The position numbers were made by a program, and so were the translations under genes. 39,578 nt of DNA, from assembly GCA_016795505.1 (NCBI GenBank), contig JAEUHH010000030.1:1-39578 (forward strand), read 5' to 3'. How positions within the stretch are numbered: the first letter of the stretch is position 1; every line of letters begins with the position of its first letter. This document shows positions 6,497 through 27,494 of the stretch, piece by piece. Origin of the DNA: Verrucomicrobiales bacterium (GTDB lineage: Bacteria; Verrucomicrobiota; Verrucomicrobiia; Verrucomicrobiales; DEV007). Under the pieces are notes generated by a model. The model did no database searches. It worked only from the letters and a program-made list of their open reading frames with translations, and was not told where the DNA came from.

Positions 6497-6570
<74 letters not shown>

Positions 6571-9369: not shown

Positions 9370-9385
9370 TTACGGTGTGCTGGGG

Positions 9386-10633: not shown

Positions 10634-10756
10634 GTGTTGTGGGGAAAGGGGAAAAAAGAGGGACGGCTAAATTCGACAAGCTTGCCGGGCTTTGCAAGGC
10701 TCATTTGTCCCCCTCGCCGGGCGCTGGCCGGGGTGCCGGTGGGGTGTGGGCCGGGC

Positions 10757-10996: not shown

Positions 10997-11514
10997 GGCC
11001 GGGAGGTGCCGGGAGGCGGGGCGGCCGGGGGGGGCGTTTGGGGCGCGGCGGCCTCGGGGGCGGGCGTCGCGAGCGACCGGAAGCCGAGCGGCCGATCCGC
11101 AAACGAGGGGCGAAACTGGGCGGAGTGGTCGCCGAGGTCCACCCGGACGTCGGATCCGGCGGAAGCTGGTCGCAAATAAACGAGGCGGTCATCGATCTGG
11201 CGCATTAGGGCGGCCACGGGCGGCAGATCGGGGTCGAGGTATTGGATTTTGCTGGGCACCGGCTCGATGCGCCCGGTGACGGGATAGACCACTTGGAACA
11301 AGTAAAAGCCGAGCAGGTGGACCACCAGGGAAATGGCGGCAAAGATGCCGATTTTGGCAGCGAGAGGCCGGCTGCCCACCCAGTCGAACACGAGGGCGCC
11401 CTTTTCACCCGCTTGGGCCGGCGGCGGCGGCGTGGGGGGCGACTGCGATCGGCTGGGGCGGGCCATGGGCGTCGGCGGTGAAAGGCAGGGCGTCGGCGGG
11501 TGCAGCCGGCGCAT
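10993..11514 (-). CDS. Single-pass membrane protein at the TonB position of an ExbBD operon
   Basis: A 173-residue protein with a Pro-rich N-terminal part (1-34), one membrane helix (about 54-78, IGIFAAISLVVHLLGFYLFQ) and a ~95-residue outer part ending in an Ala/Pro-rich tail. It sits where tonB or tolR-like genes usually follow exbBD, but has no recognisable TonB C-terminal domain and carries its Pro-rich segment before the membrane helix. The start at 11514 overlaps the ExbD stop (TGATG), which suggests coupling. A second ATG at 11466 would remove the first 16 residues. Its stop overlaps the next start (ATGA). A partner of the ExbBD motor is the likely role, by position. Confidence 0.7.
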   Translation of the reverse strand: MRRLHPPTPCLSPPTPMARPSRSQSPPTPPPPAQAGEKGALVFDWVGSRPLAAKIGIFAAISLVVHLLGFYLFQVVYPVTGRIEPVPSKIQYLDPDLPPVAALMRQIDDRLVYLRPASAGSDVRVDLGDHSAQFRPSFADRPLGFRSLATPAPEAAAPQTPPPAAPPPGTSRP

Positions 11515-11924
11515 CAGGGAGCGGCCGGCGCGGCGCCGGTGGCGTAGGCAAGGTCGTAGCCGTGTCCGAGGATGAGGCCGGACACATCCATGACGGTGCC
11601 ATAGGGAACCCGCTGATCGGCGAGCAGGATGACCTGCCGGGTCTGGCCTGTGGATTCACCGAGCCGGGCATCCAACTCCTCGCGGGTGACGCGGGTCTCG
11701 TTGAAGAAAAACCGCTCCGTCTCGCCCGGCACGATGGTGACGATGTGGGAGCGTTCCGCCACCGGCAGACTGGATTCCGAGTAGGGCAGGGTGACGGCCA
11801 CACCGGATTTCAGGATGAAGCCGGACCCGAGGAGGAAGAAAATCAGCAGCAGCAGGATCACATCCAGCAGGGGCGCCGTGTAGAGGGGCGCGGTGCGGCT
11901 GGGGAGGGTCGATTCCAATTTCAC
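11514..11924 (-). CDS. exbD: ExbD/TolR family biopolymer transport protein
   Basis: A 136-residue protein with a short cytoplasmic start, one membrane helix (about 18-37) containing the conserved aspartate D21 in PLLDVILLLLIFF, and a periplasmic domain of about 95 residues. ExbD proteins pair with ExbB to form a proton-driven motor in the inner membrane. No ATG is available near the N-terminus; GTG at 11924 gives the usual length and lies 35 bp after the ExbB stop. The frame is open further upstream inside exbB but gives Arg-rich nonsense. Confidence 0.85.
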   Translation of the reverse strand: MKLESTLPSRTAPLYTAPLLDVILLLLIFFLLGSGFILKSGVAVTLPYSESSLPVAERSHIVTIVPGETERFFFNETRVTREELDARLGESTGQTRQVILLADQRVPYGTVMDVSGLILGHGYDLAYATGAAPAAP

Positions 11925-11959
11925 GGCACCGAGGGGGGCGCTGGAGTGGGCCTGCCGAC

Positions 11960-12652
11960 CTAGGGCCGAGCGGCCTGTTGGGCCGGAGTGTCGGTGGCGT
12001 CGTCGGAGCGGCCCGGCATCATGGTGATGATGGAGGAGCGCTCGTTGCGAAGGTCGCAGATGATGTTCACGATCTCGATGCCGGCGCGCTCCATGTCGTG
12101 CATGAGCGTTTTCACATAGGCCCGGAGGAACGAGAACAGGACGAAGGAGGGGATGGCGACCATCAGCCCCGCGGCGGAGCTGATCAGGCTGGTGTAAACC
12201 CCCTTGGAGATCTCGGCGGCGGTCGCATAGCCGCCGGCGGCGTTGATTTGGACGAACGTATTGACCAGACCGAGCACCGTGCCCAGCAGACCGATGAGCG
12301 GGGCCACGTAGGCGATCGACAGGATGACGGCGAGGTATTTTTCCAGTTTGGGGACCTCCAACTGGCCGCTTTCCTGGACGATCTCCTTCAACTCGCCACG
12401 CGGGGCGTCGTGACGGATCAGGGCGGAGTGAATGACGCGGGCGACGGGACCCGGCGTCCCAGCGCACTCATGCAGGGCTTCGGCGTAGTTGCGATTGCGC
12501 ACCAGATTTCTCAGACCGTGCAGAAGATCGCCGACATCGATGCGGGCGCGATGGAAGTAGAAGTAGCGCTCCAGCGTGATGGCCACCGTCAGGATGCTGC
12601 AGCCCAGCAAAAGCCACATCAGGGGGCCGCCTTTATTGATCAGGTCAATCAT
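11960..12652 (-). CDS. exbB: MotA/TolQ/ExbB proton channel family protein
   Basis: A 230-residue inner-membrane protein with the three-helix ExbB topology: about 11-29, 108-133 and 152-176. The conserved segment LIGLLGTVLGLVNTF followed by KGVYTSLISSAAGLMVAIPSF is unmistakable. It forms the proton-conducting pentamer that drives ExbD. In this run it follows a roadblock and an MglA gene rather than a TonB-receptor gene. A 180-bp gap before it (12653-12832) could hold a promoter, though none is convincing. Confidence 0.93.
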   Translation of the reverse strand: MIDLINKGGPLMWLLLGCSILTVAITLERYFYFHRARIDVGDLLHGLRNLVRNRNYAEALHECAGTPGPVARVIHSALIRHDAPRGELKEIVQESGQLEVPKLEKYLAVILSIAYVAPLIGLLGTVLGLVNTFVQINAAGGYATAAEISKGVYTSLISSAAGLMVAIPSFVLFSFLRAYVKTLMHDMERAGIEIVNIICDLRNERSSIITMMPGRSDDATDTPAQQAARP

Positions 12653-12832
12653 GGTGTCAGATCCGTGGTCGCCGCGGTTCAGGTGAAACCGCAGCTTTTT
12701 CTCGCCCCGGATGCCGCTCTTGGCAAGCGGGTTTCAGTGGGGTCGTTGTGTGGGGAGAGAAAGCATGTTTTCGGCCAAAAACGAAGTCTTCACGATACGG
12801 AAGGCCGTTGGAACGGAAAAAATACACCGGTT

Positions 12833-13492
12833 TCAGCCGATTTCGAACACATATCCCGGGCGGTTGCCTCCACCGCTCGGGTGATTGGCGGTGGGGGCAC
12901 CGGGAACAGGCGAACCGACGACGGGAGCCGTCGGTCCGGGCGGAACCACGGTGTGATCGATCGGCACGGTAGGCGGCGCCGGATACGGATGAGCGGCAGG
13001 CAGCGTGTGGGGCGCCGGAGCCGCGGCCGGTGGGGCTGCCTGAGCGGCGGCGGCGAGAGCGGCCGCGGGTTCGGTGAGGAGAGCGGAAAGCGGGCCGGTG
13101 ATTTGGGCGGCCTTTTCCCGCACGATGCCGGCCGGCAGGGCGAGTTCGGCCACGCCCAGAAGGATGTAGCGGGGGCCGATCTCGCGGAGATAGATGGTGT
13201 CCTTGTCGCCGTGGTGAACGCTCTCGACGATGGAGGATTCGCCCAATTCGCGTGCCAGAGAGCGCATCGCGCCGAACGCTCCCGCCACGAGGGCGCCGAC
13301 GGTGTCGACATCGACATCGGGCCGACTGGCGACACCGGCGACCATGCCGCCGCTGCGGTCGACGATCACGGCAAGGTCCAGTTCCGCCTCGGCGGCAAAT
13401 TCACGCAGGATTTCTTCCGCACGGTCCGCCGCCTCGGCACTGACCTCGGTGTCGTCCCAGTCGAGGATGGGGTTCTCGGTGGTGGCGTTCAT
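12833..13492 (-). CDS. Roadblock/LC7 domain protein (MglB-like)
   Basis: A 219-residue protein with a roadblock/LC7 fold over about 25-140: helix 25-35, strand DLAVIVDRSGGMVAGVA, helix VGALVAGAFGAMRSLARELG, strands SIVESVHHGDKDTIYLREIGPRYILLGV and a final helix. The remaining 80 residues are Ala/Pro-rich and probably disordered. MglB-type roadblock proteins act as activators of MglA GTPases at cell poles in Myxococcus. The MglA-like gene directly upstream (gap 76 bp) makes that pairing likely. The ATG at 13492 was chosen because the frame upstream adds only 15 unrelated residues. Confidence 0.85.
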   Translation of the reverse strand: MNATTENPILDWDDTEVSAEAADRAEEILREFAAEAELDLAVIVDRSGGMVAGVASRPDVDVDTVGALVAGAFGAMRSLARELGESSIVESVHHGDKDTIYLREIGPRYILLGVAELALPAGIVREKAAQITGPLSALLTEPAAALAAAAQAAPPAAAPAPHTLPAAHPYPAPPTVPIDHTVVPPGPTAPVVGSPVPGAPTANHPSGGGNRPGYVFEIG

Positions 13493-13568
13493 GTCGGCTC
13501 TGGGCGAAGCGGTAATGCAAAAAGGACGGGAGAGCAAAACCTTTCAGTATCGCACACAATCAAGGTCT

Positions 13569-14294
13569 TCAACTGCCCAGGGCGACTTCGCCGGGTTGGG
13601 GCTCGGCTCGGGCGCGGGAATCGATGGCGGCATTCACCGTGAGGCTGGTCTGGCGGGCGCCGGCGGGTTGGGGTGCCGGCTGACCGGCTGCCAGGGCCGC
13701 GGCCCGCATCCTTCGGCGCAGATGGAAGTCGCGCAGGACCTTCTGGGTCACGGCATCGAGGGTGGCGAAGACATTGTATCCTGTGCCGGCGCAGGCCAGA
13801 TAGGTCGGTCGCGTCACACCGAGTGCCTCGTCCATTTCCTCGGGCGCCATGGCGTTGGACAGGTCGCGTTTGTTGAACTGGAATACCACCGGCATGCGCT
13901 CGAAGGAGCGGTTCAGCACGCGCAGGTCGGCGATGGTGCACTCAAGGGCCTCCAAATTGGCTTCGTGGCGCGCCGGATCGGAGTCCGCGACGAAGACGAT
14001 GCCATCCACGCCGGTGAGCACGATGCGTCGAGTCTCGCTGTAGATTCTCTGCCCCGGCACCGAGTAAAGTTGAAAGCGGGTGTCGTAGCCGGCGATGATG
14101 GTCGGATGCACCGGCAGAAAGTCGAAAAACAGGGTGCGCTCCTGCTCCGTGGCGATCGAAGCCAGCGCGCCTCGCAGATTGGGCGCGAGCCGCTGGTGGA
14201 TGTAGATGAGGTTCGTGGTCTTGCCGCCCAGCGGAGTGCCGCAGTAGACGATTTTGAACTGAACCTCTCGTGTGTCGTGATTGACGACTGCCAT
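13569..14294 (-). CDS. mglA: MglA-type small Ras-like GTPase
   Basis: A 241-residue GTPase. The P-loop GTPLGGKT is at 19-26, the MglA hallmark ERTLFFDFLP at 52-61, the switch II motif SVPGQ at 78-82 (MglA proteins lack the usual aspartate there), GVDGIVFVADS at 95-105 and the guanine motif NKRD at 141-144. In Myxococcus and relatives MglA sets cell polarity for motility and pilus systems, with roadblock MglB as its activator. Compared with MglA (about 195 residues), this protein has about 40 extra Ala/Pro-rich C-terminal residues. It lies between the giant protein gene and the roadblock gene, all on one strand. Confidence 0.93.
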   Translation of the reverse strand: MAVVNHDTREVQFKIVYCGTPLGGKTTNLIYIHQRLAPNLRGALASIATEQERTLFFDFLPVHPTIIAGYDTRFQLYSVPGQRIYSETRRIVLTGVDGIVFVADSDPARHEANLEALECTIADLRVLNRSFERMPVVFQFNKRDLSNAMAPEEMDEALGVTRPTYLACAGTGYNVFATLDAVTQKVLRDFHLRRRMRAAALAAGQPAPQPAGARQTSLTVNAAIDSRARAEPQPGEVALGS

Positions 14295-14355
14295 GAGCGT
14301 GAAAAGGGGATGTCTGAGTTAAAATGAGGAGTCGCCCGGAGGAACCGGGTGTGGC

Positions 14356-17300
14356 CTAGCCTTCCAAGGCCGCCAGACCCCGGGTGACCAGGATGAGTTT
14401 CTCGCGCACGCCGGGATCGAACTGGCCCACCTGATGGCGCACCGTCAGGCAGTGGTCGCCATGCAGGAAGACACTGATCAGCCCCTGATCCGTGTGGAGG
14501 GTGAAGGTCTCCGCGTTCGGCATGCCGGTGGCGCGGGCGATCTCGCGGACGCCGTTGAGCAAGGCTCCGGCCTGCACGGCCAGATCGCCCGATTCACGAC
14601 CGCGGGGAGCCTGGGCAGTGCAACCGGGCGCGATGATGGCACAGGCGAGGATGCCCGGCAGGCCGGCGGTCAGGTCGGCCACGCGGCGGAAGGAGAACGA
14701 TTCGTTGGTGCCGAAGACGGCCCTCAGTTCGATATCGCGGGGCACCAGCGAGGCACTCTCCGGGGCGGCGGGCAGGGGGAAGATTTTGGCTGACAGATCC
14801 CCCACCGATGGGGCGGGGCTCGTCGCCACAGGCTGGGCCGGGGCCGGGGCCGGGGCCGGGGTGGCGACGGGTGCGGAAGCCTGGGCCACTGGGGCGGATG
14901 CGGGTGCAGGTGCGGCGACGGGAGTCGGCACCGTTTCGAGTTCTTCGAAAAAGCCGGTCTTGTCCGGGGCGGTCTCGGCCACGACTTCCGGCTGGGCCGG
15001 GGCAGCCTTCGCGCCGGGGGCCGGAATGGTGGCAATGACCCTCGGGCTGGAAACGGCAGGCTTTTGAACCGAAACGGAGATTTTCGGAGACTTCGCCGCC
15101 GAAGCCACCGCCTTGGCCGCAGCCGCCGGCTTGGGCGCGGCTTTCGGCTGGGGAGCTGGCGGGGCCGGGGCGAGGGGCTCCAGATCCTCCAGGGTGGCAA
15201 AGCCAGAGAAACCCCAGTGCTCTTCGTCGCTCGCCGGGAAGGCGCTGTCGGCATCGTCCTCGAATTCCTCCGGGGCGTCTCCCAGTTCGGAGGTCGCCTG
15301 AGCGCCCGCGGCGTGGGCAAACAGTTCCAGATCGTCGAAAAAGCCGGGGTTCGAGGCGTTTTCCGACTCAATCCCTGGGGTCGTTTCGGCGGCTGCGGCC
15401 GGGTCGGTCCGGCGCGGCAGCGGGGCAAAGGGATCGGAGGTCGCCCCCGGCTTCGGGGCCGGTTGCGAGGAGGGAGCAGGCTGCGGGGTCACGGTCGAGG
15501 AGATGTTGATGGCCTTCTTGACCGGTTTGGGAGCCGCTGCCGGGGCGGGCGCTTCGGGCCGGCGTTTCGGACTGATGACAGCGGGCTTTTCCTCCACCGG
15601 GAGAGAGCCGGCGATGGTCAGATCCGGACCGGCGACCGGCTCGGGCTGGGCGGCGGGCGTTGCCATCGGCGCCGGCTTCGACGCGGCGGGCGCCTCGGGC
15701 AGTTCGTCCTCCAACACCTCGTTTTGCCAGCCGAGACCGGCATCGAGGCGGGCTTCCGTGCCGAAAAGGGTGGAAAACTGACTGTCCAGGTCTCCCAAGG
15801 CGCCGGTGTCCAGTTCCGGCGAGAACTCCGTGATCTGGTGGAACAACTCATTCTCCGGCAGCGGGATTCGCGCCATCGGATTCACTCCCGCCAGCACCCG
15901 GATTCCGTCGGAGTCGCCATGCGTGATCAGGTCGCGGACGGTGACGGCCGGCTCTCCCGATTCCATTTGCGGCAGCAGCAGGGACACGGGCAGCCGGACT
16001 TTGGCCGAGGGCGGCATGGCGGCCAGGTCGATGCCCAGTTCCTTTGCCAAGGGTCGAAGCAGTTCGGCGAGGGTGAACACGACGGTCTCCCCCGTGCCGG
16101 CGGGGGCGGCGAGGGGTGTCGGAGTCGACTTTTCTGCCGAAATGGCCGCTGCTTGCGGCTGCGGAGCGTCGAGCGGCCCCCAGGGGGACGAGAAGTCAAA
16201 CGGAGTCGGCTGGTTGCTGGAGGCATTCTGGCCGGGATCAGACGGGCCGAAGAAGGATTTGGGCAATTCCCAACTGGCGGCCGCATCCTTCTTCGTCTGG
16301 GCAGCGGACTCCGGCGCGGATTGGGTGGTTCCTTTGGCAGCAAAGGCGGCAAACGGATCGTCCACAGAGTCAGTCGCCGGCGCGGCCTCGCGGGGGGCCG
16401 GGGCCGGTAATTCCCACGGCGAGACCACCGACAGGTTGGGGCCGGCCGCGGCAGCGGAAGGAGCCGGGGCGGAATGAGGCGCGTCAAACGGCGACGGACT
16501 GGAGGCTGCGGCACTGGATCCACCCGGAGGATCTCCCCAGGGAAAAACAAATGGAGCCGATCCGGGACTGCTGCTCGCGGCTGGCTTCGCTTCGGTGGCA
16601 GGGAGCGGGTTGGGTTCGCGACCTGCGGCCTCACGCTCGCTGGCGGGCGTCGAGTCCGCTCCGAAGGGCCAGAAAGACTCTTTTTTGGCCTCGGGGGCGG
16701 TCGGAGCAGCCGGTGACGGAGCGTCAAAGGGATTGGCTTCGGGCGTTTTGGGCACGACCGGCGGGCCGGCGAAGGGATTCGCGACAGGCGCCGCAGATTC
16801 TCCGGCCGAAGTCGGTCCGAAGGGAGAGTGGGATGTCTGGCCGGACTCGGCACCCAGTTTCCACGGCAGCGTATGGGCTTCCGGCTTGGCGACAGGGGGG
16901 CTGGCGGGCGGTTCCGGTGTTTTCGGGCCGGCTTTTGGAGGGGCGAAGGGCGAATCCTCGCCCAGACCGAGGTCGATTCCCATCGGGGTGTCGCTGGATC
17001 CGGCAGGAGAGTTGCCGCCGGACCAGGGATTGGCACCGGGAGCGGCGGTTGGCGGGGCGATCGGCTCCGCAAACGGCGAAACGGCCGGCTGGGGCGCCGA
17101 ACCGAAGGCGCCAAAGGGTGATTCCGGCGCTTTCGGTTCTGGAAATCCAAATCCGCCCGGCGGCGGCGGCGACGAGTGGGCGGCGACGGCGGGTGGCGCT
17201 CCTTTCAATTCGGTCGGGGAGGCCGAAAACGGGTTGCCGATCGGAAAGCCGGCCTTTTTCTCTCCTCCGGAGCCGCCGATCGGGGCGCCTGCGGGAGCGG

Positions 17301-18033
17301 CAAAGGGATTGGCGGATGCGGCGACGGGTGCGGCTGCTACGGCCATGGCGGGAGTGGCCACGGGTTCTGCCAGACGGGGCCGGGCGGCAGCTTCGGGGGC
17401 AGCCGTGAGAGCCGGAGCGGATGCTGGCGCAGACACCGTCCGGTCGCCCGGGACTCCGGCTCCGATGGGCGACCACGGGGCGGCATCGGCAGACTGCTGG
17501 GCGGGCCCCGCGGGCAGGGAAGGTGATTGTCTGGGCAGTGTGATCTCCGAGTCGTTGAGAGGCGTGATCGCCGTCGCAAACAGCTCGGGGCACACGCGCT
17601 GGATGGTGGTCAGCTTGACCTCGCCGCTGCCGTCGACCGGCATGGGGATGGCGACCGTGCGGTCCAGATTGATGTTCGCATGACTGACCAGCGAAGGCGG
17701 CAGAAAGGGCAGGATCTCCCGCAGAGTGTAATGCTCCGTCGGACCCGTGGGTGTGGGCGCAGACCCGGCGGGAGCAGAGCCACCGATGCCCTGACTGGCA
17801 AAGAGGGCCTCAAAACTGCCACGACCCGTCGGCAGGGGATTCGGGACGAAGGGCTTGCTGGCAGGGGCCGGCTCATCCGCCCCGGCATTGGAAAAAACGT
17901 TCGAAAACGGCGCCGAACTGAAAGGATTGCCCTCGCCGGCTTCCGGCTTTCCGGCATCCGTTGGCGAACCGGCAGCCTCGGGCGGGTCGGCTGGCTTGTC
18001 CTGGGAAAAGAGATTCCGGAAGGAAAAGGACAT
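14356..18033 (-). CDS. Giant Pro/Ala-rich protein with duplicated domain and roadblock-like C-terminus
   Basis: A 1225-residue, mostly low-complexity protein with no signal peptide or membrane helix. Ordered parts are domain 1 (about 101-167, starting YTLREILPFLPP), domain 2 (about 652-727, starting FTLAELLRPLAKEL) and a C-terminal domain (about 1095-1225) with the roadblock/LC7 pattern of alternating strands and helices. Domains 1 and 2 share TL-x-E-x-L, a following V-x-x-P strand, GE-x-x-V, and an ending I-x-LP, so they look like one duplicated domain. Linkers hold many xPF motifs (NPF, SPF, DPF, WPF) and acidic repeats GFFDDLE (897-903), GFFEELE (1027-1033) and FATLEDLE (945-952). The ATG at 18033 is preferred to TTG at 18048. 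It precedes mglA by 61 bp. A scaffold for the GTPase/roadblock pair is the likely role, by inference. Confidence 0.85.
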   Translation of the reverse strand: MSFSFRNLFSQDKPADPPEAAGSPTDAGKPEAGEGNPFSSAPFSNVFSNAGADEPAPASKPFVPNPLPTGRGSFEALFASQGIGGSAPAGSAPTPTGPTEHYTLREILPFLPPSLVSHANINLDRTVAIPMPVDGSGEVKLTTIQRVCPELFATAITPLNDSEITLPRQSPSLPAGPAQQSADAAPWSPIGAGVPGDRTVSAPASAPALTAAPEAAARPRLAEPVATPAMAVAAAPVAASANPFAAPAGAPIGGSGGEKKAGFPIGNPFSASPTELKGAPPAVAAHSSPPPPGGFGFPEPKAPESPFGAFGSAPQPAVSPFAEPIAPPTAAPGANPWSGGNSPAGSSDTPMGIDLGLGEDSPFAPPKAGPKTPEPPASPPVAKPEAHTLPWKLGAESGQTSHSPFGPTSAGESAAPVANPFAGPPVVPKTPEANPFDAPSPAAPTAPEAKKESFWPFGADSTPASEREAAGREPNPLPATEAKPAASSSPGSAPFVFPWGDPPGGSSAAASSPSPFDAPHSAPAPSAAAAGPNLSVVSPWELPAPAPREAAPATDSVDDPFAAFAAKGTTQSAPESAAQTKKDAAASWELPKSFFGPSDPGQNASSNQPTPFDFSSPWGPLDAPQPQAAAISAEKSTPTPLAAPAGTGETVVFTLAELLRPLAKELGIDLAAMPPSAKVRLPVSLLLPQMESGEPAVTVRDLITHGDSDGIRVLAGVNPMARIPLPENELFHQITEFSPELDTGALGDLDSQFSTLFGTEARLDAGLGWQNEVLEDELPEAPAASKPAPMATPAAQPEPVAGPDLTIAGSLPVEEKPAVISPKRRPEAPAPAAAPKPVKKAINISSTVTPQPAPSSQPAPKPGATSDPFAPLPRRTDPAAAAETTPGIESENASNPGFFDDLELFAHAAGAQATSELGDAPEEFEDDADSAFPASDEEHWGFSGFATLEDLEPLAPAPPAPQPKAAPKPAAAAKAVASAAKSPKISVSVQKPAVSSPRVIATIPAPGAKAAPAQPEVVAETAPDKTGFFEELETVPTPVAAPAPASAPVAQASAPVATPAPAPAPAQPVATSPAPSVGDLSAKIFPLPAAPESASLVPRDIELRAVFGTNESFSFRRVADLTAGLPGILACAIIAPGCTAQAPRGRESGDLAVQAGALLNGVREIARATGMPNAETFTLHTDQGLISVFLHGDHCLTVRHQVGQFDPGVREKLILVTRGLAALEG
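14835..14861. repeat. GGCCGG hexanucleotide repeat inside the giant gene
   Basis: About four in-frame GGCCGG units encode a Pro-Ala run near residues 1059-1067. Because the unit is six bases long, copy-number change would lengthen the linker without a frameshift. Confidence 0.6.
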
Positions 18034-18122
18034 CGTGTTATTGGTCAAAGGACGAACCGGGTCAGAGATCCACCGCCCCTTTTCAGGTCTCCCGGCAGTG
18101 GTTTCGACAGAGAATCAATCTA

Positions 18123-18131
18123 ATTATAGCA
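18123..18131 (-). promoter_or_regulatory. Extended -10 promoter for the giant-mglA-roadblock run
   Basis: On the minus strand TGC-TATAAT, a perfect -10 hexamer with the extended TGn, lies 90 bases before the ATG at 18033 in an AT-rich island. Transcription would start near 18116. A perfect TTGACA exists upstream (18158-18163) but 29 bases away, too far to be its -35. Confidence 0.55.
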
Positions 18132-18307
18132 ATTTCAAAATCCGAGACTAGCGAATTTGTCAAGAAATTCAACAACATTTTGAAATTAATGAAAATTAGA
18201 AATCTTTCTCCAGGTTCTCAACTGCCAGTGGATCGCTGTTTCGGGCCGTTCCGGCGGATGTTTGAGGAAGACCCGGTCCTTCCGGACAACACTTGGCTTT
18301 TGACGTG

Positions 18308-18323
18308 GCGACCAAATGGTCGC
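18308..18323. promoter_or_regulatory. Perfect 7-bp palindrome upstream of metG
   Basis: GCGACCA-AA-TGGTCGC. This could be an operator or a tight hairpin. It is 230 bp before metG and 275 bp before the giant gene, so its target is uncertain. Confidence 0.45.
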
Positions 18324-18353
18324 TTGCCCGCAGCCGGTTTCCGATGGACCCTA

Positions 18354-18431
18354 GCGACGAAATGACGACCGCCACGCGTTGCCTTCGAATGCGTTGAAGG
18401 GGAGCTACCGCTGCTCCCCACGGTTCGTCGC
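18354..18431 (+). ncRNA. Candidate structured RNA element (multibranch inverted repeats) upstream of metG
   Basis: An outer stem GCGACGAA (18354-18361) with TTCGTCGC (18424-18431) encloses a GGGGAGC/GCTCCCC hairpin (18399-18405, 18413-18419) and a weaker ACGC/GCGT hairpin (18374-18377, 18391-18394). Together they form a three-way junction shape about 120 bases before the metG start. No known riboswitch was recognised. It may be a metG leader element, a small RNA or a dispersed repeat. The strand is assumed from metG. Confidence 0.35.
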
Positions 18432-18552
18432 GACCTTCCTCCTGCCGACGCGCCGTAAAACAAGGGCCCGGCGGAGTGGAAACGCCCCAGACGGGCCGGA
18501 TTGTCTGTTTCCCCTTTCTTTTTCCGAGAACCTCCTCCTTTTTCCCTGAGAC

Positions 18553-20583
18553 ATGCGCCAGATCCTCGTCACGTCCGCCCTGCCCTACGCGAACGGCCAC
18601 ATCCACATCGGTCACCTCGTCGAGTATCTCCAGACCGACATCTGGGTGCGGTTCCAAAAGCTCCGCGGGCATCGCTGCATATACATCTGTGCCGATGACA
18701 CCCACGGCACCGCCATCATGATCCGCGCCCAGCAGGAAGGGCGCAGCGAGGAGGCCCTCATCGCCGAGATGCGCGAGGCCCATGTCGGGGACTTCACCGG
18801 ATTTGGCATCGCCTTCGACCACTACGGCAGCACCAACAGCGAGGCCAATCGCGCCGTCTGTCACGAGATCTGGGCCGCCCTCCGCGCCGCCGACATGGTG
18901 GTGGAGCGCGCGGTTGAGCAGCTCTACGACGTGGAAAAGGAGACCTTTCTCGCCGACCGCTTCGTCCGCGGCACCTGCCCCAAATGCGGCGCCAAAAACC
19001 AGCCCGGCGACAACTGCGGCGCCTGTGGGGCCACCTACTCGCCCAGCGACCTGGTCGATCCCGTCAGCACGCTGTCGGGCACCCGGCCCGAGGTGCGCTC
19101 GGCGAGCCATTTGTTCGTCCAGATCGAAAAGCTGCACGGTTTCCTCGACGAGTGGACCCAGAGCGGCACCCTCCCGCCGGAGAGCGCGAATTATCTGAAG
19201 GGCTATTTCCTCCACGAGCCGCTTCGCGACTGGGACATCTCCCGACCGGGGCCCTATTTCGGATTTGAGATCCCCGACTCACCCGGCAACTACTGGTACG
19301 TTTGGTTCGACGCACCGATCGGCTACATCGGAGCCACTCGCGAGTGGTGCGACCTCACCGGCGAATCGTTTGACGCGTGGTGGCGTAGCGCCTCGACGGA
19401 GATCCATCACTTCATCGGCAAGGACATCCAGTATTTCCACACCCTGTTCTGGCCCGCCATGCTGAAGACCGCCGGCTTCACGCTGCCGACCCGGGTGCAC
19501 ATCCACGGTTTCCTCACCGTCGACGGCGCCAAAATGTCGAAATCGACCGGCACCTTTGTCCGCGCGTCGAAATATCTCGAGCACCTCGATCCTTCCTACC
19601 TCCGCTACTACTACGCGAGCAAGCTCAATGCCCGGGTCGAGGACATCGACCTCAATCTGGAGGAGTTCGTCGCCCGGGTGAATGCCGATCTCGTCGGGAA
19701 AGTGGTCAATCTCGCCAGCCGCAGCGCGAAATTCGTCGAGGCGACAGGTCTCTCCGCCCGCTATCCCGACGATGGTGGGCTTTTCGCCGCCTTTGCCGCC
19801 GAGGGAGCGGCCATCGCAGCCGCCTACGAAGCCGGCGACTTCCACAAGGCCATGCGCGCCATCGTCGAACTCGCGGACCGCGCCAATCCCTACGTCGAGG
19901 CGAATGCCCCGTGGGAGCTGCGCAAGGATCCCGCCAAAGCCGACCAGTTGCAGGACGTCTGCACCGTGGCGCTGAATCTCTTCCGCCAACTGGCCATCTA
20001 CCTATCGCCCGTGCTGCCCGATCTGGCTGAGAAAGCCGGCGCCCTGCTCAACGATCCCATCGTGAGCTGGGAGCAGGCTGCCACACCCCTGACCGGCACA
20101 CCGGTGGCGAAGTTCCAGCACATGCTCCAGCGGGTCGATCCCGCCAAAGTCCAGGCCATGATCGAAGAAAGCCGCGAGCAGGCCCCCGAGTCCATTCCCG
20201 CCGCTGCCACCCCGGTGGACAGCGCCGCCGCCCTCCAGGCCGATCCCATCGCCGCGGAGATCAGCATCGACGATTTTGCCAAAGTCGACCTGCGGGTGGC
20301 CCGCGTCATTGCCGCCGACGAGGTGCCCGAGGCCCGCAAACTCATCCGTCTGACCCTGAGCCTTGGTGGTGAGGATCGACGTCAGGTTTTCGCCGGCATC
20401 AAGGCCGCCTACGAGCCCGCCGACCTGGTAGGACGCCTCGTCGTGATGGTCGCCAATCTCGCGCCGCGCCAGATGAAGTTCGGCCTCAGCGAAGGCATGG
20501 TCATCGCCGCCGGTCCGGGAGGCGAGGACATCTTCCTGCTCTCGCCTGACGACGGGGCTGTGCCGGGACAGCGGGTGAAGTGA
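18553..20583 (+). CDS. metG: Methionyl-tRNA synthetase
   Basis: A 676-residue class I aminoacyl-tRNA synthetase that charges tRNA-Met. It has [11 protein letters not shown] with HIGH at 18-21, a zinc knuckle with C142, C145, C155 and C158 (CPKCG...CGACG), KMSKS at 327-331 and the C-terminal tRNA-binding OB-fold domain (about 575-676, starting [14 protein letters not shown]). All parts expected of the long form are present. No Shine-Dalgarno sequence precedes the ATG; the leader is C/T-rich and structured further upstream. It is divergent from the giant gene and followed by the TIR pair after 83 bp. Confidence 0.97.
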
Positions 20584-20629
20584 GCGGAGGGCATTGCACA
20601 TGCGTCGCGGAAAATGCGCTTTCAAGCCC

Positions 20630-20658
20630 TTGCCTTCCAAAAACAGTTTTGATAACTT
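20630..20658 (+). promoter_or_regulatory. Candidate promoter of the TIR gene pair, near-leaderless
   Basis: TTGCCT (20630-20635), a 17-base spacer and TAACTT (20653-20658) with an extended TGA before it. The predicted transcription start is about 20665, only two bases before the ATG at 20667, so the mRNA would be practically leaderless. Found by eye. Confidence 0.35.
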
Positions 20659-20666
20659 TGGCATCC

Positions 20667-21095
20667 ATGAAGGTATTTATCAGCCATTCGTTTGAAGACA
20701 GCGATCTGGCCCGCCAGTTGGCCGATGGGTTGAGGGCCAGAGGACTGGAGCCGTGGCTGGCTGAAGCCGAAGTCTTCCCGGGAGACAATTGGGCAGAGGC
20801 GGCTGGCATTGCGATGAAGGAGTCAGACGCCATGGTCGTGCTGGTCACTCCCCGGTCCGCAGGGACTCCCCAGCTGTTGATGGAGGCAGGATATGCCCTG
20901 ACGAATCGGCAGTATGCCAGACGGGTGATCCCCCTAGTGGTCGGGAATCTCGATGAGATGCCCGAAAATGCCTACCCGTGGATTTTGGACCGCTATCTCG
21001 TCGTCAAAATCGACGAGGTGGGCAAACTGTTTACGGCGATCGATCGGATTGCAGAAGCATTGAAGTCAAATATTCCCGGGCCTGTCGCGGCATGA
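20667..21095 (+). CDS. Stand-alone TIR domain protein, first of pair
   Basis: A 142-residue protein that is little more than a TIR domain. Strand A is KVFISHSFED (2-11), then a helix LARQLADGLRARGLEPWLAE, a BB-loop-like FPGDNW (37-42), strand AMVVLVTP and the helix GTPQLLMEAGYAL, where E73 occupies the position of the catalytic glutamate of NAD-cleaving TIR domains. Bacterial TIR proteins hydrolyse NAD or make cyclic ADP-ribose variants, often in antiphage defence; whether this one does is unknown. There is no sensor domain in the same chain. Its stop overlaps the next start (ATGA). The base composition looks lower in GC than in metG, which would fit accessory DNA. Confidence 0.85.
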   Translation: MKVFISHSFEDSDLARQLADGLRARGLEPWLAEAEVFPGDNWAEAAGIAMKESDAMVVLVTPRSAGTPQLLMEAGYALTNRQYARRVIPLVVGNLDEMPENAYPWILDRYLVVKIDEVGKLFTAIDRIAEALKSNIPGPVAA

Positions 21096-21511
21096 CCCTG
21101 CCACGGGAAGTCTTTTTGTCCCATGCGTCTCCGGATCGCCCACTCGCGGGACGCATCGGGGGAATCCTTCAGCACCACGGCATTTCCACCTGGTTTGCGC
21201 CCACTGACATTGTCGGGGCGAGGCAATGGCAGGATGAGATCGGGCGTGCGCTGAGGCGTTGCGACTGGTTTCTCATTTTGCTGAGCCCGGCTTCGGTCGC
21301 GTCCATGTGGGTGAGGCGGGAACTGCAATATGCCCTCAATCAGGCGCGCTACCATGAGCGCATCATTCCCATTTTGGCGGAGCCCTGCGATGTTGAAAGC
21401 CTGTCTTGGGTGCTGTCTTCGATCCAACAGATAGACTGTTTTCACCAATCTGAGGAAGCGGCGTGCGAGGAAATCCTTCGCGTTTGGGGAATCGATTTTC
21501 AGAAGCGGTGA
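21092..21511 (+). CDS. Stand-alone TIR domain protein, second of pair
   Basis: A 139-residue TIR domain: REVFLSHASPDRPLAGRI (5-22), helix GGILQHHGISTWFAP, BB-loop region IVGARQWQDEI, strand WFLILLSPASVASMWVRREL, where E77 is the candidate catalytic glutamate, and strand HERIIPIL. It keeps the S-x-x-S-x-W-x-x-x-E arrangement better than the first TIR protein. The two share only general TIR features, so they are paralogues of different subtypes rather than a recent duplication. The ATG at 21092 overlaps the previous stop by four bases, so the two are translationally coupled and likely act together. It is convergent with the export operon, 111 bp away. Confidence 0.87.
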   Translation: MTLPREVFLSHASPDRPLAGRIGGILQHHGISTWFAPTDIVGARQWQDEIGRALRRCDWFLILLSPASVASMWVRRELQYALNQARYHERIIPILAEPCDVESLSWVLSSIQQIDCFHQSEEAACEEILRVWGIDFQKR

Positions 21512-21622
21512 AGGCCGAAAGCGGCTCTTGAAAGTCTGGGTTGCGCCGCTGTCGTAACTGGGGCGGAGAGAATCAACCTTTCGCCCTGATGGGATCGTGA
21601 CGTGGAGTCCGAGACCGATTCA

Positions 21623-22984
21623 CTACTCGTGCCGCAGCGCCTCCACCGGGTTCATCCCGGCGGCGCGGAAGGCCGGGTAGATGCCGAAAGCCACGCCGAT
21701 CACCACGGAAATGGTGAAAGCCAGCGCCGGCGCCCAAAACTCGACGATCGTCAGCATGTCCGCGAAGCGGGTGATGACCATGGGGATGGCCAGCCCGACG
21801 GCCACGCCGATCAGTCCTCCCGCGCCGGAGAGCAGCACCGTCTCGATGAGAAACTGCGAGACGATGTCCCGCTGCTTCGCTCCCAGTGCGCGGCGGATGC
21901 CGATCTCGCGGGTGCGCTCCGTCACGGTCGCCAGCATGATGTTCATGATGCCGATCCCGCCGACGATCAGTGAAATCGCGGCGATGGATCCGAGCACGAT
22001 GTTGAAAATCTGTTTCGTTCGCTCGGCGCGGCGCAGCAGTTCCAGAGGTACGATCATGCGATAGTCCACCTCCTTGTGGTTGCGCTCCAGCAGGTGGCGG
22101 ATGGCTTCCGCCGATGTCATCACCTTGTCGGGATCGTTGATTTTCACCGTCACCTCGTGGAAATCGACCTTTTCCGCCTCGAAACTGCCCGAGCGGTACT
22201 TCATCAGCACCTCGCCGAAACGCTCCACCAGAGTCGTTAGCGGGATCAGCATCTCGTAGGTCGATTCCTCGCCCGGGGCACCCTTTTCGCCGCCCTTCTT
22301 GGCTTTTTGGCTGCCGCCGCCCAAGCCGCCGCTGCCCGCAGCCGCATCGGTGGAGATGGGGCGCCCCTCGATGATGCCGATCACCCGGAAATAGCTCCGT
22401 TGCAGCCGCACCTCCCGGCCGATGGGATCGGACAGGGGAAACAGCCGTTTGGCCAGGTCGGCACTGAGCACGCAGACATTGCTGCGGTCTTCCATCTCCA
22501 GATTGGTGAAAAAGCGGCCCGCCGACACCCGCCGGCCGCGCATTTCGGGATACCAGCTCACCGTGCCGAGCACGTCGGCATCGACGCTGTGGGAGATGTT
22601 CCAGATGTAGTCCTTCATCTGGCGCGCCGGCACCACCACCTCGACACCGGGGATGGTGTTGCGGATCTGCTCCAGATCGCGCCGGGTGAGCCCGTAGCTG
22701 AGGATGAGACTGCGCTGCTGCTCGCCGGCGGTGGCGTCATTCGTCGGTTTCACGCTCTGCAGGATGATGTTCTGGCTGCCGAGATTCTTGATCTGTTCCT
22801 GCGCCTCATGGCTGGCCCCTTCGCCGATCGCCAGCATCGCGATCACGGAGGCCACGCCGAAGACGATGCCCAGCGCGGTCAGCATGGAGCGCAGCTTGTG
22901 CATCCACAGGCTCTTGAGCCCGAGGATGACGGAGCGCTTCAGCCGCCACACGGCGAGATCGCCGACTGTTTTTGAAAATTTCAT
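21623..22984 (-). CDS. macB: MacB-type ABC transporter permease
   Basis: A 453-residue permease of the MacB/FtsX family. A first membrane helix after [18 protein letters not shown] (about 20-50), a large periplasmic domain with MacB-core features (50-320) and three C-terminal helices with [18 protein letters not shown] between them. Such proteins work as mechanotransmitters with an adaptor and TolC to push substrates from periplasm to outside. A Gly/Lys-rich insertion (about 225-245) sits in the periplasmic domain. The ATP-binding subunit is a separate chain (next gene upstream, 120 bp away, separated by the hairpin repeat). The start at 22984 gives [16 protein letters not shown]; the frame upstream adds only 17 unrelated residues. 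Confidence 0.92.
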
Positions 22985-23056
22985 TCCATGCTTGCCGGAA
23001 CCGGCACAATAAGGGGAAAAACGGCGGGGGATCAACCGTGCGGGACGGCGCGATTC

Positions 23057-23121
23057 CGATCAGACCCTGTTTGATCGGCGATGAGACCCTGTTGCATCGG
23101 AGACTCAACCCTCTTTCATCG
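23057..23121. repeat. 22-bp-period hairpin repeat, locus B (three units)
   Basis: Units at 23057-23077, 23079-23099 and 23101-23121, exact 22-bp period. Units 1 and 2 have the core ACCCTGT and self-complementary arms: CGATCA/TGATCG in unit 1 (six pairs) and CGATG/CATCG in unit 2. Unit 3 is decayed (ACCCTCT core) and overlaps the last codons and stop of the ATP-binding protein gene. It lies in the operon gap before the permease gene. Confidence 0.8.
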
Positions 23122-23848
23122 ACAGGGCCGCGCCGGCGGACGGGCGCACGATGGCGTCGCCGGAATCGAAGACGACCTGGCCGTCGCGCAGCCGGATGAC
23201 GCGCGGGGTGCGCTCGGCCATTTTCTCGTCGTGGGTGATCATGATGAGGGTCTTTCCGGCGGCATTGAGGTCGTCGAAGATCTTGAGGATGTCGCCGCCG
23301 GATTTGGAGTCGAGATTCCCCGTCGCCTCGTCGGCGAGGATCACGGCGGGATCGTTGGCGAGGGCGCGGGCGATGGCGACGCGCTGCTGCTGGCCGCCGG
23401 AGAGCTCGGTGGGGCGGTGGTCGAGCCGCTCGCCGAGCCCGACCTGGCGGGCGAGGTCGGTGGCGATGCGCCGGCTCTCGGCCTCGGGCACGCCCTGGTA
23501 GTAGAGCGGCACCTCGATGTTTTCGACCACGGTGAGCTGCTGGATCAGATTGTAGCTCTGGAAAATGAAGCCGAGCCGTTTCCCGCGGACCTGTGACAGC
23601 TCGTCGTCGGGCAGTCGCGCGACATCGCGGCCTTCGAGCAGGTATTCGCCGGTGGTGGGCTGGTCCAGGCAGCCGAGGATGTTGAGCAGGGTCGACTTGC
23701 CGCAGCCGGACGGGCCGAGGATGGAAATGTAGTCGCCGGCATAGACGGTGAGCGTGATGCCGTCGAGCGCCTTGACCAGGAAGGAGCCCATCAGGTAGTG
23801 CTTCTCCACCTGGCGCAGCTCGATGATGGCGCGGCGGCCTGCTTGCAT
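23105..23848 (-). CDS. MacB/LolD-type ABC transporter ATP-binding protein
   Basis: A 247-residue ATPase with Walker A GPSGCGKST (45-53), Q-loop FIFQSYNL, signature LSGGQQQR, Walker B VILADEATGNLD and the H-loop histidine in MITHDEK. The sequence after Walker A (LGCLDQPTTGEYLLEG) is typical of LolD/MacB ATPases. It powers the permease encoded downstream. Its last residues MKEG and stop codon come from the diverged third unit of the 22-bp hairpin repeat, so the C-terminus may have been altered by repeat insertion. It follows the adaptor gene by 45 bp. Confidence 0.94.
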   Translation of the reverse strand: MQAGRRAIIELRQVEKHYLMGSFLVKALDGITLTVYAGDYISILGPSGCGKSTLLNILGCLDQPTTGEYLLEGRDVARLPDDELSQVRGKRLGFIFQSYNLIQQLTVVENIEVPLYYQGVPEAESRRIATDLARQVGLGERLDHRPTELSGGQQQRVAIARALANDPAVILADEATGNLDSKSGGDILKIFDDLNAAGKTLIMITHDEKMAERTPRVIRLRDGQVVFDSGDAIVRPSAGAALSMKEG

Positions 23849-23893
23849 CTCCGTGGGTCGGCTGGCGGGTCGGTCGCCGGGCGGGCGATCGGG

Positions 23894-25684
23894 TCAGGCC
23901 TTTTCCTCGGGCTCGGATGAGGCGGCGTTGTCGGCCACGTCGGCGGGCGCGATCTCCTCATCCTCTTCGCGGTTGGGCTCGTAGCCGTCCGGCATGCGGA
24001 GTGCGACGACGGAGCCGTCATCAATGCCATCGACGATCTGGATGAACTCGTCGTTGTGTTCGCCGATCTTGACGGGCTGCCGACGATATTCACCACCGTT
24101 TTTCATGAAGACGAAGTGGCGGTCCTTCTCGACGAAAACAGCCTGCACGGGCACGTAGAGCACGTCCTTCAGTTCGTTGACGATGATCTTGACCTTGGCA
24201 GTCATGCCCGGCTTGAGGAATTCGTGGGTGCCGGCGATCTCGATGGTGGAGGGATAGACCTTGAGGGAGGGATTGTAGCGCGAGGCGTTCGAGTCGGGCA
24301 GCACGGCCACCTTGGAGACGCGGCCTTCCAGGGTCTTGTCGGCGACGGCATCGGCGACGATCACGGCGCGCTGGCCGAGCTGCACCTTTTTGATGTGCGA
24401 CTCGTGGATCTTCACGTCCACGCCGAGGCGCGACATGTCGGGGATGGTGATGATGGGCTGGCCGAGCTTGAGGGCGGCGCCTTCGGAGATGGCTTCGTAG
24501 TAGCGGCCGCTGTAGTAGTCGGTGTTGCTGCCGCCGTAGGCGACGAGGCCGGGCTTTTGAGCGACGATGACGCAGCTTTTGACCTGATTCTCCAGATCGG
24601 CCCGCTTTTCCAACTGGAGGGCATAGCGGCGCTTGGCGGTGCGGAAGCGGGCCTCGGCTTGGGCGACGGCGGCGAAGGCTTCGCGTTTTTCGCGGATCAG
24701 CTCGAGAAGGGCCTCCTCGTAGGTGGAGAGCATCTTCTCGGCTTCCTTGGGGAATTCGTAATCGCGGAAGAGGCTGAGCTCCGTGTCCTTGGTCTGGACG
24801 GCGAGCTTGGCTTTCTCCAAGCCGACGAGTTCGTTCTCGAGGGTCTGCCGCGTGATGAAGTTGCGCTCGTGCAGCCGCTTGGCACCTTCCACGGATTCCT
24901 CGACGACGGCGAGTTCGGTTTTCGCGACGAGGGCCTCATCCTGCAGCCGGCGGATGGTCTGCTCGGCTTCGCCCTCACCGAGGCGGTCGGACTTGAGCAG
25001 CACGGAGAAATCGACGCTGGAAGCCTGACTGGCCTGACCGTCGGCGGTGAAGGGGGAATCGTCGGTCGGATCCTCCGACTCGGTGTAGAGGCGACCGGCA
25101 TCGAAGCTCTTGGCGATCAGGTCGGTGGCCTCCTTTTCGTAGGTGTCGATGGTCTCGGTGTCGTAGGGCAGGCTCAGGGACTGCAGGACCTCGCGGGCGG
25201 CCTTTTCACCGAGAAATTTCTGGAAATCGAGCAGCGCGAAGCGGAGCGCCTGACGAACCAGTTTGACTTCGCTGAGGCTCTCGCTCTGCTGGATCTCCAG
25301 ACCCTGTTTGGCTTCGGCGTAGAGGGACTCGGTCTGCTGGAACTCGACATCGTGATCGACGATGCTCTGCTCGATGCCGGACGAGTCGAGGCGCACGAGG
25401 ACTTTCTTCTGTTCGACATCCTCGGGCGTGACCTGATAGCCTTCCTCGATGATCTCGAGGATTTTGGTGCCCTCGGTGACCTTGACCTCGTTCTTGATCT
25501 CCAGGGACTGGAGCGCATGGATGTTGCCGCCCTCGAGGACGTCGATAACCAAATTACCCCGCTTTGCCGAAAATTCAGGCAGATCCTCGACCATGCCACC
25601 ATCGGACCCGGCGCGGTTGGCGTAGATCAGGATACCACCGCCCAGCGCGATGGCCGCGGCGATGATGATGGGTTTCTTACTCAT
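23894..25684 (-). CDS. Periplasmic adaptor (HlyD/MacA family), unusually long
   Basis: A 596-residue adaptor with an N-terminal membrane anchor (about 5-22). A lipoyl-type half motif follows (GNLVIDVLEGGNIHALQSLEIKNEV). The long alpha-helical hairpin (about 110-370) contains an extra segment rich in acidic residues around DPTDDSPF. Beta-barrel and membrane-proximal domains complete it (VDVKIHESHIKKVQLGQ, then LKPGMTAKVKI). MacA proteins are usually near 370-400 residues, so the hairpin region is enlarged. It links the MacB-type permease to the TolC-like protein. The ATG at 25684 overlaps the end of the TolC gene by eight bases, and the C-terminus is acidic (EEDEEIAPADVADN). Confidence 0.9.
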   Translation of the reverse strand: MSKKPIIIAAAIALGGGILIYANRAGSDGGMVEDLPEFSAKRGNLVIDVLEGGNIHALQSLEIKNEVKVTEGTKILEIIEEGYQVTPEDVEQKKVLVRLDSSGIEQSIVDHDVEFQQTESLYAEAKQGLEIQQSESLSEVKLVRQALRFALLDFQKFLGEKAAREVLQSLSLPYDTETIDTYEKEATDLIAKSFDAGRLYTESEDPTDDSPFTADGQASQASSVDFSVLLKSDRLGEGEAEQTIRRLQDEALVAKTELAVVEESVEGAKRLHERNFITRQTLENELVGLEKAKLAVQTKDTELSLFRDYEFPKEAEKMLSTYEEALLELIREKREAFAAVAQAEARFRTAKRRYALQLEKRADLENQVKSCVIVAQKPGLVAYGGSNTDYYSGRYYEAISEGAALKLGQPIITIPDMSRLGVDVKIHESHIKKVQLGQRAVIVADAVADKTLEGRVSKVAVLPDSNASRYNPSLKVYPSTIEIAGTHEFLKPGMTAKVKIIVNELKDVLYVPVQAVFVEKDRHFVFMKNGGEYRRQPVKIGEHNDEFIQIVDGIDDGSVVALRMPDGYEPNREEDEEIAPADVADNAASSEPEEKA

Positions 25685-27494
25685 TAGTTGTTCCTTCTTT
25701 CTGGAGTTTTTCCACCCATGACCCGTCTTTGTTAATATAAAGGATGCCCATGTCCTGCCACAGACGCAAACGCGCCAAGGTATGCTCCACAAGGGTTTGT
25801 GTGCGCTGATTTCGTGAGTTAACGAGGTCGCGCTGGGCGTCGACGAGGTCGCGGGCCTCGCCCTGTCCCAGCTCGGAGAGTAGCTCCTGCTCCTCCAGGC
25901 GTCGCTCGGCGAGTTGGACGCCGAGTTCGCTGATCTCGAAATTGCGCTTGGCCTGTTCGAGCGCCCGCCAGCCGTCGTAAACCTGGAGGCGCACCTGGTC
26001 GAGGGAGAGTTCCTCCTGCCGTTTCGACTGCTCCAGCGAGATCAGGGCGCTGCGGTATAGGTTGCGCTCTTCCTTGCGGTCGATGGGCAGGTCGACCTGG
26101 ACGCCGGCAGACCAGGCCTTGCGCTCGGGATTGAGGCTGGGGGTGATGTCGCCGGGGTCACTGATGACATCGTAGGTGCCGACGGCGTCGAGACCGGCCT
26201 GGAGTTCCACCTTGGCGACTTTGATTTTCCGCTCGGCATCGGCGATGCGGTCGCGGGCGGTTTCGAGGTCGGGCCGGGCGGTGAGGGCGAGTTTGACGGC
26301 TTCGTCACGGCTGATGCCGGGATCTTCGATGGAAAGTTTCGACAATTCGGTGTCGGCGAGCACGATTTTCTCCTCGACGGGCAGGCCGAGTTCGATTTTC
26401 AGCTCGTCGAGTTGGTTTTGGTAATCCCGGATGGCATTGACCCACTGGCTCTCGGCCTGGAGCAGGGCCTGCCGGAGCTGGCCGAGCTCGGTCTGGGTGC
26501 GGCGGTCCTCCTCGGCCAGCGCTTCCTCGCGCTCGACGTTTTTCACGAAGCCCTGGTAGGCGACCCAGTTGTTTTTGACCGTGTCGCGCGCCTGCAGGAC
26601 GCCGTAGTAGCGAGAAACGATGTCGACAATGAAGGTGCGGCGGAAATTCGCAAAATCGCGGATGGCGTAGAGCAGCTCACGATCGGCCTGGGTGAGGGTC
26701 TCCATGGTCGTCCGGTAGCCACCGCCCTTCAGCAGCGGCTGGGTCAGGGTCACGGCGAGCTTGGAATTGTTGATCGAGGTGTCGCCGGCGATGAAATTGA
26801 GGAAATCGGACGTGAAATCGGCCGCCAGCCGCGCGCCGGTGCGCTGGAGCATGGTGAAGCCGATGCGCTGGTTGCGCGTGAAGGTGCGGGTGGCGATGAG
26901 CTCGTCGATCTGCTCCTGCACCTGCTCGGCGACCTCGGGGGCGGGCGCCTCGGTCACAACGCCGGTGATGGGGTCCACGACCGGTGGTGGAGGGGGCGGC
27001 GGCGGGGGTGGGGGAGGCGGATCGCCTTCGCGGAAGTCCTCGGTGTAAGTCGCATCGCCGCCGGCGGAAAAGATCGGCGCGAGTTCGTGGCGGGTCAGGG
27101 TCAGATCGAGGGCCTGGAGATAGATCGTCTCTTTTTGGCTCAGGTAGCCGCGATTGTGATGGATGGCGAGGTCGAGGGCATCGGCGAGCGGGAGGACGCG
27201 GGCGCCTTTTTCGGCATCGGCCATGGCACCGAGGAATTCGCCGGTGGCCTTGTTTTTATCGAGTTGGTCGAGGGGCTTTTTCTCGGCTTCGCGGATATCG
27301 AGTGACTCGGGATCGACATTTTCCACCTTGCCGGTCTTCGACCACAGGATGCGCTTGGTCTCGCGGTCGGCGGTCTTTTCGTAGAATCCGGGCGCGCACC
27401 CGGACAGCCCCACGACGGCGGTCGCCGTGAGCAAAGCTATCCTCGTGGGACGCGCGGTGGCGCTCCCTCTGCCTGTTTCGTTTCGGTTTCGCAT
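25677..27494 (-). CDS. TolC family outer membrane lipoprotein with poly-proline loop
   Basis: A 605-residue outer-membrane efflux protein. It has a signal peptide with lipobox LSGC (acylated C33), then two repeats of long amphipathic helices typical of TolC (for example QADRELLYAIRDFANFRRTFI and the DLETARDRIADAERKIKVAKVEL segment). Between the first pair of beta-strands (DATYTEDF and RIGFTML) is a segment with 13 consecutive prolines (26982-27020) followed by an acidic helix-like stretch; by topology this is an extracellular loop. It forms the exit duct of the export system and is the first gene of the operon, overlapping the adaptor start by eight bases. A 154-bp gap separates it from glgB. 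Confidence 0.93.
   Translation of the reverse strand: MRNRNETGRGSATARPTRIALLTATAVVGLSGCAPGFYEKTADRETKRILWSKTGKVENVDPESLDIREAEKKPLDQLDKNKATGEFLGAMADAEKGARVLPLADALDLAIHHNRGYLSQKETIYLQALDLTLTRHELAPIFSAGGDATYTEDFREGDPPPPPPPPPPPPPVVDPITGVVTEAPAPEVAEQVQEQIDELIATRTFTRNQRIGFTMLQRTGARLAADFTSDFLNFIAGDTSINNSKLAVTLTQPLLKGGGYRTTMETLTQADRELLYAIRDFANFRRTFIVDIVSRYYGVLQARDTVKNNWVAYQGFVKNVEREEALAEEDRRTQTELGQLRQALLQAESQWVNAIRDYQNQLDELKIELGLPVEEKIVLADTELSKLSIEDPGISRDEAVKLALTARPDLETARDRIADAERKIKVAKVELQAGLDAVGTYDVISDPGDITPSLNPERKAWSAGVQVDLPIDRKEERNLYRSALISLEQSKRQEELSLDQVRLQVYDGWRALEQAKRNFEISELGVQLAERRLEEQELLSELGQGEARDLVDAQRDLVNSRNQRTQTLVEHTLARLRLWQDMGILYINKDGSWVEKLQKEGTTNE
25692..25696 (-). promoter_or_regulatory. 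Shine-Dalgarno site AAGGA of the adaptor gene
   Basis: AAGGA seven bases before the ATG at 25684, inside the 3' end of the tolC-like gene. It is notable because most other starts in the window have no such site, and it fixes this start. Confidence 0.6.

Follow-up and report, generated by a model that had tools for sequence, protein, structure and literature searches.

TIR domains are modules of bacterial, plant and animal immune systems that destroy the cofactor NAD. Enzymes of this type become active only once their TIR domains assemble, and how bacterial TIR proteins are held off and switched on is largely an open question. The only bacterial system built on two TIR genes that we found in the literature, our coverage of which was partial so that an earlier description of the pair reported here is possible, is ThsB1/ThsB2 of Thoeris. 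In Staphylococcus aureus Thoeris, ThsB1 binds a phage capsid protein and then recruits and activates the catalytic TIR protein ThsB2, and only the active site of ThsB2 matters (PMC12578639). In plants, the TIR domain of RRS1, which lacks the catalytic glutamate, forms a TIR heterodimer with that of RPS4 (PMC7282519). A TIR active site is located where two TIR domains meet, in the BB-loop (BE) interface (PMC11364022). Most bacterial TIRs depend on the glutamate of the WxxxE motif for their NADase activity, and the tryptophan of this motif is strongly conserved in TIRs that produce cyclic ADP-ribose (cADPR) and more weakly conserved in noncatalytic ones (PMC11374754).

Here we analyse the window, a stretch of 39,578 nucleotides from a Verrucomicrobiales bacterium, which carries two adjacent TIR genes, A and B (Table 1). 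The preliminary description of this DNA, in which two short TIR genes of 142 and 139 residues are joined by an ATGA overlap, is exact to the base. An in-frame GTG at 20580, upstream of the start of A, would extend A to 171 residues; the start at 20667 is favored because orthologues begin MKVFISHS. Both proteins match the Pfam family TIR_2 (PF13676) above its curated cut-off of 28 bits (67.8 bits for A and 97.8 bits for B), and neither protein carries anything further, consistent with the earlier remark that no sensor or effector domain is attached. The lower GC content that had been noted is also borne out, with the pair at 57% and GC3 at 0.66 in both genes versus 0.82-0.91 in metG and the MacB, ABC and membrane fusion protein (MFP) genes that adjoin them.

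Table 1. Features of the A-B locus and its immediate neighbors in the window.
Feature	Coordinates	Strand	Remarks
metG, methionyl-tRNA synthetase (flanking)	18553..20583	+	83 bp before A; outside the pair
Gene A, single TIR_2-domain protein	20667..21095	+	ATG 20667, TGA 21093-21095; 142 aa, MKVFISHSF...; more variable partner, proposed regulator/sensor
BB-loop region of A, residues 33-43 (EAEVFPGDNWA)	20763..20795	+	conservation above that of the average A column
Codon of A residue 73, acidic residue of the catalytic column	20883..20885	+	E in the window, D in 5/15 orthologues
ATGA start/stop overlap coupling A and B	21092..21095	+	equal -4 overlap in Planctomycetota locus L055/L109
Gene B, single TIR_2-domain protein	21092..21511	+	ATG 21092, TGA 21509-21511; 139 aa; WxxxE kept (W73, E77); proposed catalytic NADase/cyclase
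WxxxE motif of B, W73-V-R-R-E77	21308..21322	+	W and E invariant, 11/11 intact orthologues
MacB-like permease (flanking)	21623..23035	-	opposite strand to the pair; outside the pair

AlphaFold2 models predict TIR folds for both proteins, with mean pLDDT values of 89.5 for B and 85.3 for A. When these models are used in a fold search, the top rank goes to the TIR-APAZ protein of SPARTA (short pAgo systems; Z about 17), with SARM1, AbTir, Toll-type TIRs and others close behind; A and B differ from SPARTA in having neither an APAZ domain nor an Argonaute gene. A profile search of solved structures places AbTir, 7uxr, 3h16 and Cat1 among the top matches, and the E values to the bacterial TIRs AbTir, 3h16 and 7uxr range from 8e-12 to 1e-10 for B and from 2e-10 to 1e-7 for A. 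The Z values for SPARTA, SARM1, AbTir and the Toll-type TIRs are too close for the families to be ranked by fold, and a narrower family is not assignable from the predicted folds or from the matches to solved structures. AbTir, 3h16 and 7uxr, which count among the best sequence relatives of known structure, share the fold of the pair and the WxxxE motif of B. To our knowledge, none of these three proteins is known to form an obligate pair with the product of a second TIR gene.

Comparison with the ThsA-ThsB1-ThsB2 form of Thoeris reveals that both loci encode two different TIR proteins together and that only one of the two has a required catalytic site, as we propose for A and B from their sequences. 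The S. aureus system, however, has the effector ThsA adjacent and a much larger ThsB1, whereas A and B are single TIR domains with no adjacent ThsA. Moreover, matches of the pair to ThsB models are weak and partial, with no more than 28 bits for B of the window, and are below those to the SAVED_TIR and TIR-PNTD models. Because ThsA is not adjacent and the ThsB matches are weak, we have not filed the pair as Thoeris; it is a variant among TIR-based systems and, as far as could be found, a conserved two-gene TIR-TIR unit without a name. The likeness to RRS1/RPS4 (PDB 4c6t), a TIR-TIR heterodimer in which one partner is without the catalytic glutamate, is one of working plan only, since the TIRs of the plant pair form part of large NLR receptors, whereas A and B are stand-alone bacterial proteins. 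Toxin-antitoxin systems likewise consist of two adjacent small genes that are tightly coupled and kept together.

The same arrangement recurs well outside the window. A followed by B on the same strand is present in Cyanobacteria, Acidobacteria, Planctomycetota, a deltaproteobacterium and Calditrichota/KSB1, so that about six phyla are represented when the window is included. A scan of genome contigs with A gave relatives of about 36-45% identity. Six of the loci found in this way, in which a B orthologue (45-54%) follows A immediately and in the same orientation, come from Nostoc favosum, a Caldithrix MAG, a Deltaproteobacteria MAG, an Acidobacteria MAG and two Planctomycetota MAGs. A profile search with B only, run on samples from six phyla so that the outcome would not depend on having started with A, yielded six new B loci (L095-L099 and L102; two from the cyanobacterial, three from the acidobacterial and one from the Calditrichota/KSB1 sample), and A is directly upstream on the same strand in all six. 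Further matches to the B profile are weaker and correspond to multidomain TIR proteins, such as L100 and L101, and no true B orthologue without A was seen in these samples of six phyla. Its recurrence in the same order in five other phyla puts the pairing far beyond chance, and we reject the idea that A and B are chance neighbors. The conserved adjacency in other genomes that the preliminary description had proposed to look for is thus present, the alternative of a pair unique to this genome is excluded, and its picture of a coupled TIR-TIR pair on accessory-looking DNA agrees with the recurrence across phyla and the lower GC. Presence of the pair is very patchy, amounting to about 1% or less of the sampled genomes in most phyla, with counts, each including the genome used as centre, of 1/288 in the sample of the window's phylum, 3/386 in the cyanobacterial sample and 4/347 in the acidobacterial sample. 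No orthologous pair beyond that of the window was found in 75 genomes of its taxonomic family or 288 of its phylum. The pairing of A and B is firmly supported.

A comes first in every pair, and 9 of the 11 intact pairs have a gap of -4 to +21 bp between the two genes. In a tree of A and B with 48 other TIR domains, A and B fall into two separate clades and no sister relation between them is shown, in keeping with their earlier assignment to different subtypes. Therefore the pair is not a simple recent duplication, and local tandem duplication is ruled out by these separate clades together with the recurrence across phyla. The nearest relatives of B in the tree are the multidomain TIR proteins L030, L100 and L101 (support 96/83), which carry extra C-terminal regions, that of L030 being an FGE-sulfatase, whereas B is a TIR domain alone with A as partner. 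The TIR-FGE-sulfatase protein (L030:1495-2541) is encoded in a genome of the window's taxonomic family (G074). Pairwise identities of A and B correlate over 11 genomes (Mantel r 0.73, p 1e-4) and also when the closest genome is left out (r 0.56, p 0.001), which is the co-divergence that would be expected if the two genes are inherited as a unit.

The two partners are unequal in their catalytic motif. The preliminary description held that both proteins keep the catalytic glutamate, and this is true of the window, where E73 of A and E77 of B both align in the conserved catalytic column; across the family, however, only B has the full catalytic WxxxE. Both motif residues are invariant in the intact copies of B, but the tryptophan is present in only 4 of 15 copies of A and lost in the other 11, the window's A having Q at this position, and the acidic residue of A is E in 10 copies and D in 5. 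The frequent loss of the tryptophan and the replacement of E by D in A mean that an unequal arrangement of enzyme plus partner fits better than two equal NADases. In addition, A is less conserved than B in 55 of 55 genome pairs (mean 0.41 versus 0.56). For the Nostocales loci L049 and L103, which provide the dN/dS contrast for one genome pair only, dN/dS reaches 0.75 in A and 0.25 in B, compared with 0.03-0.07 in three neighboring genes, and the contrast in substitution counts between A and B gives a Fisher p of 0.04. Conservation of the BB loop, strand D and the DE region of A is above the average for A (1.3-1.4x), whereas the helix bearing its catalytic column is at 0.98x this average; the equivalent helix of B is more conserved than the B average. 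Given that the active site is formed at the interface of two TIR domains, this profile suggests that A may have been retained for its part in assembly, with constraint on its own catalytic column relaxed. A division of labor between B as enzyme and A as partner is moderately supported, although A may itself be active because the residue at its catalytic column is E rather than D in 10 of the 15 copies, including that of the window.

On this basis, we propose that A and B make up a minimal TIR system of two components that has spread horizontally and in which B cleaves NAD+ and A gates B by TIR-TIR contact, a model that we think has an even chance of being correct. It draws on the pairing, gene order, co-divergence, separate lineages, motif inequality, faster change of A, loss of B beside intact A (described below) and predicted TIR folds. 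TIR domains would line up head to tail, with the BB loop of one completing the active site of the next, and B, as the enzyme, would convert NAD+ to ADPR and/or a cyclic ADPR isomer. A would associate with B by a TIR-TIR contact of this kind and determine when B is active, sensing a trigger, probably phage, and otherwise holding B off; A is the likely sensor because it changes fastest. Among tested systems, the closest precedent is ThsB1/ThsB2 of S. aureus Thoeris, and RRS1/RPS4 of plants provides a second. Infected cells would be stopped either through loss of NAD+ or by a nucleotide signal. That B acts as an NADase, that A and B are in physical contact, that A regulates B and that phage is the trigger are all points that we infer, and it is only by inference that an anti-phage role can be suggested for the pair. 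Against gating by A stand the mostly housekeeping flanks, the glutamate present in 10 of 15 copies of A and the fact that neither protein has an added sensor domain.

The pattern of decay is also unequal. B is broken or missing next to an intact A at four loci, with a frameshift at the WVKRE motif in L107, at least two small base losses in L108, a large internal deletion in L114 and no B at all in L115, and no broken A beside an intact B was found among the loci examined. The search based on B is biased against broken B genes and still found two of them, so the direction of decay is unlikely to be a search artefact; the asymmetry is nevertheless one of four loci only, in some of which MAG or assembly errors are possible. 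At a further Calditrichota/KSB1 locus (L120), found by the search with A, both genes are broken, A by a frameshift and B by truncation, which tempers the pattern that A is never lost. In two Calditrichota/KSB1 loci (L115:6945-11465 and L120:1334-3300), A is upstream of secA, and the L120 site looks the same as the chromosomal site of L115, as if loss had been caught in progress. These observations bear on the main rival to gating, a toxin-antitoxin-like arrangement in which B would be a constitutively toxic NADase and A a dedicated pseudo-TIR inhibitor that caps the B strand without any sensing. Such an arrangement accounts for the decay pattern about as well as gating does, given that the loss of B beside intact A is never seen in reverse, and it is in accord with the position of A before B in the operon, with the catalytic relaxation of A and with the precedent of RRS1, whose TIR heterodimerises with RPS4 without a catalytic glutamate (PMC7282519). 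The fast evolution of A, however, is not what would be expected of a simple inhibitor whose partner is conserved, the glutamate is kept in most copies of A, and the decay counts are small, so that we regard this explanation as rather unlikely.

The genes around the pair provide a further means of evaluating these ideas. The preliminary description placed no known defence partner next to the pair, and this is the case, with metG upstream and genes for a MacB-like permease, an ABC ATPase, a membrane fusion protein and a TolC-like outer membrane protein downstream, the last four forming an efflux-type set on the minus strand (21623-27494). The window also encodes a 1230-residue Pro/Ala-rich, low-complexity protein without a Pfam match (14356-18048, minus strand). 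There are 11 TIR_2 matches in the window's own genome, in which three TIR_2-domain genes share one 26-kb contig (G000 contig C60, about 6141-23231; L003 and L006), where each lies in a longer open frame, perhaps as part of an immune cluster. In L106 (6681-11359), genes for an ABC ATPase and a MacB-type permease enclose the pair, which runs on the other strand, and the presence of a MacB permease beside the pair both here and in the window is possibly a coincidence.

An all-against-all comparison of the flanks gave no third partner gene common to the loci. A fixed third partner was rejected because the flank genes that are shared occur mainly between L049 and L103 (Nostocales) and between L105 and L107 (Acidobacteria), which reflects shared chromosomal sites; the other flank families in common are widespread ABC, MFP and dehydrogenase families. 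Among 110 flank proteins of 14 loci there is no consistent defence gene and no PADLOC match to ThsA at E 1e-10, and a search for the ThsA domain STALD, which gave no matches in 15 genomes and likewise none in all controls, is neutral on this point. The flank comparison weighs on the possibility that the pair is a Thoeris-like producer of signal, in which A and B together would make a cyclic ADPR isomer for a receptor encoded elsewhere in the genome. Thoeris can also run on two TIR proteins of which one is catalytic, and the tryptophan linked to cADPR production (PMC11374754) is invariant in B, but with no third gene common to the flanks and with ThsB matches as weak as those given above we judge this possibility to be unlikely.

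Across the loci, the flanks of the pair are mostly housekeeping genes, and an association with defence islands, which the preliminary description had suggested checking, is not supported. The Pfam matches of the flanks include Prenyltransf and CTP_transf_1, and in two Acidobacteria the pair is enclosed by uppS and cdsA of the core lipid/isoprenoid gene cluster (L105:7464-10003 and L107:8087-10690, the latter with the frameshifted B), a site that is unusual for an immune-type gene. The search of viral contigs gave no match, and plasmids carry no B orthologues, their matches being other TIRs of 26-37% identity; phage- or plasmid-borne spread was accordingly rejected. Housekeeping flanks argue against a classical defence-island gene, though the patchiness and decay of the pair are typical of accessory immune genes. 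The same neighbors, and the lipid/isoprenoid cluster in particular, would suit a small NAD+-metabolic or signalling enzyme pair of ordinary physiology with no part in defence. We consider this quite improbable, however, because presence in so few of the sampled genomes, spread across phyla, repeated decay and dN/dS values well above those of housekeeping neighbors are typical of conflict genes.

Gating by A can be taken one step further, to the tentative and rather speculative suggestion that A and B are an unnamed, all-TIR two-gene immune system, a bacterial "paired receptor" and prokaryotic counterpart of RRS1/RPS4 that is controlled by hetero-assembly. In such a system, the fast-evolving, catalytically relaxed TIR would sense the invader without an added sensor domain and would gate the catalytic TIR. 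With about 850 bp that encode two TIR domains and nothing else, the pair is among the smallest possible settings for on/off control of a TIR enzyme, and its sequence yields the clear predictions that B is the enzyme and A the switch. If these hold true, the pair would be a bacterial parallel to the paired TIR receptors of plants.
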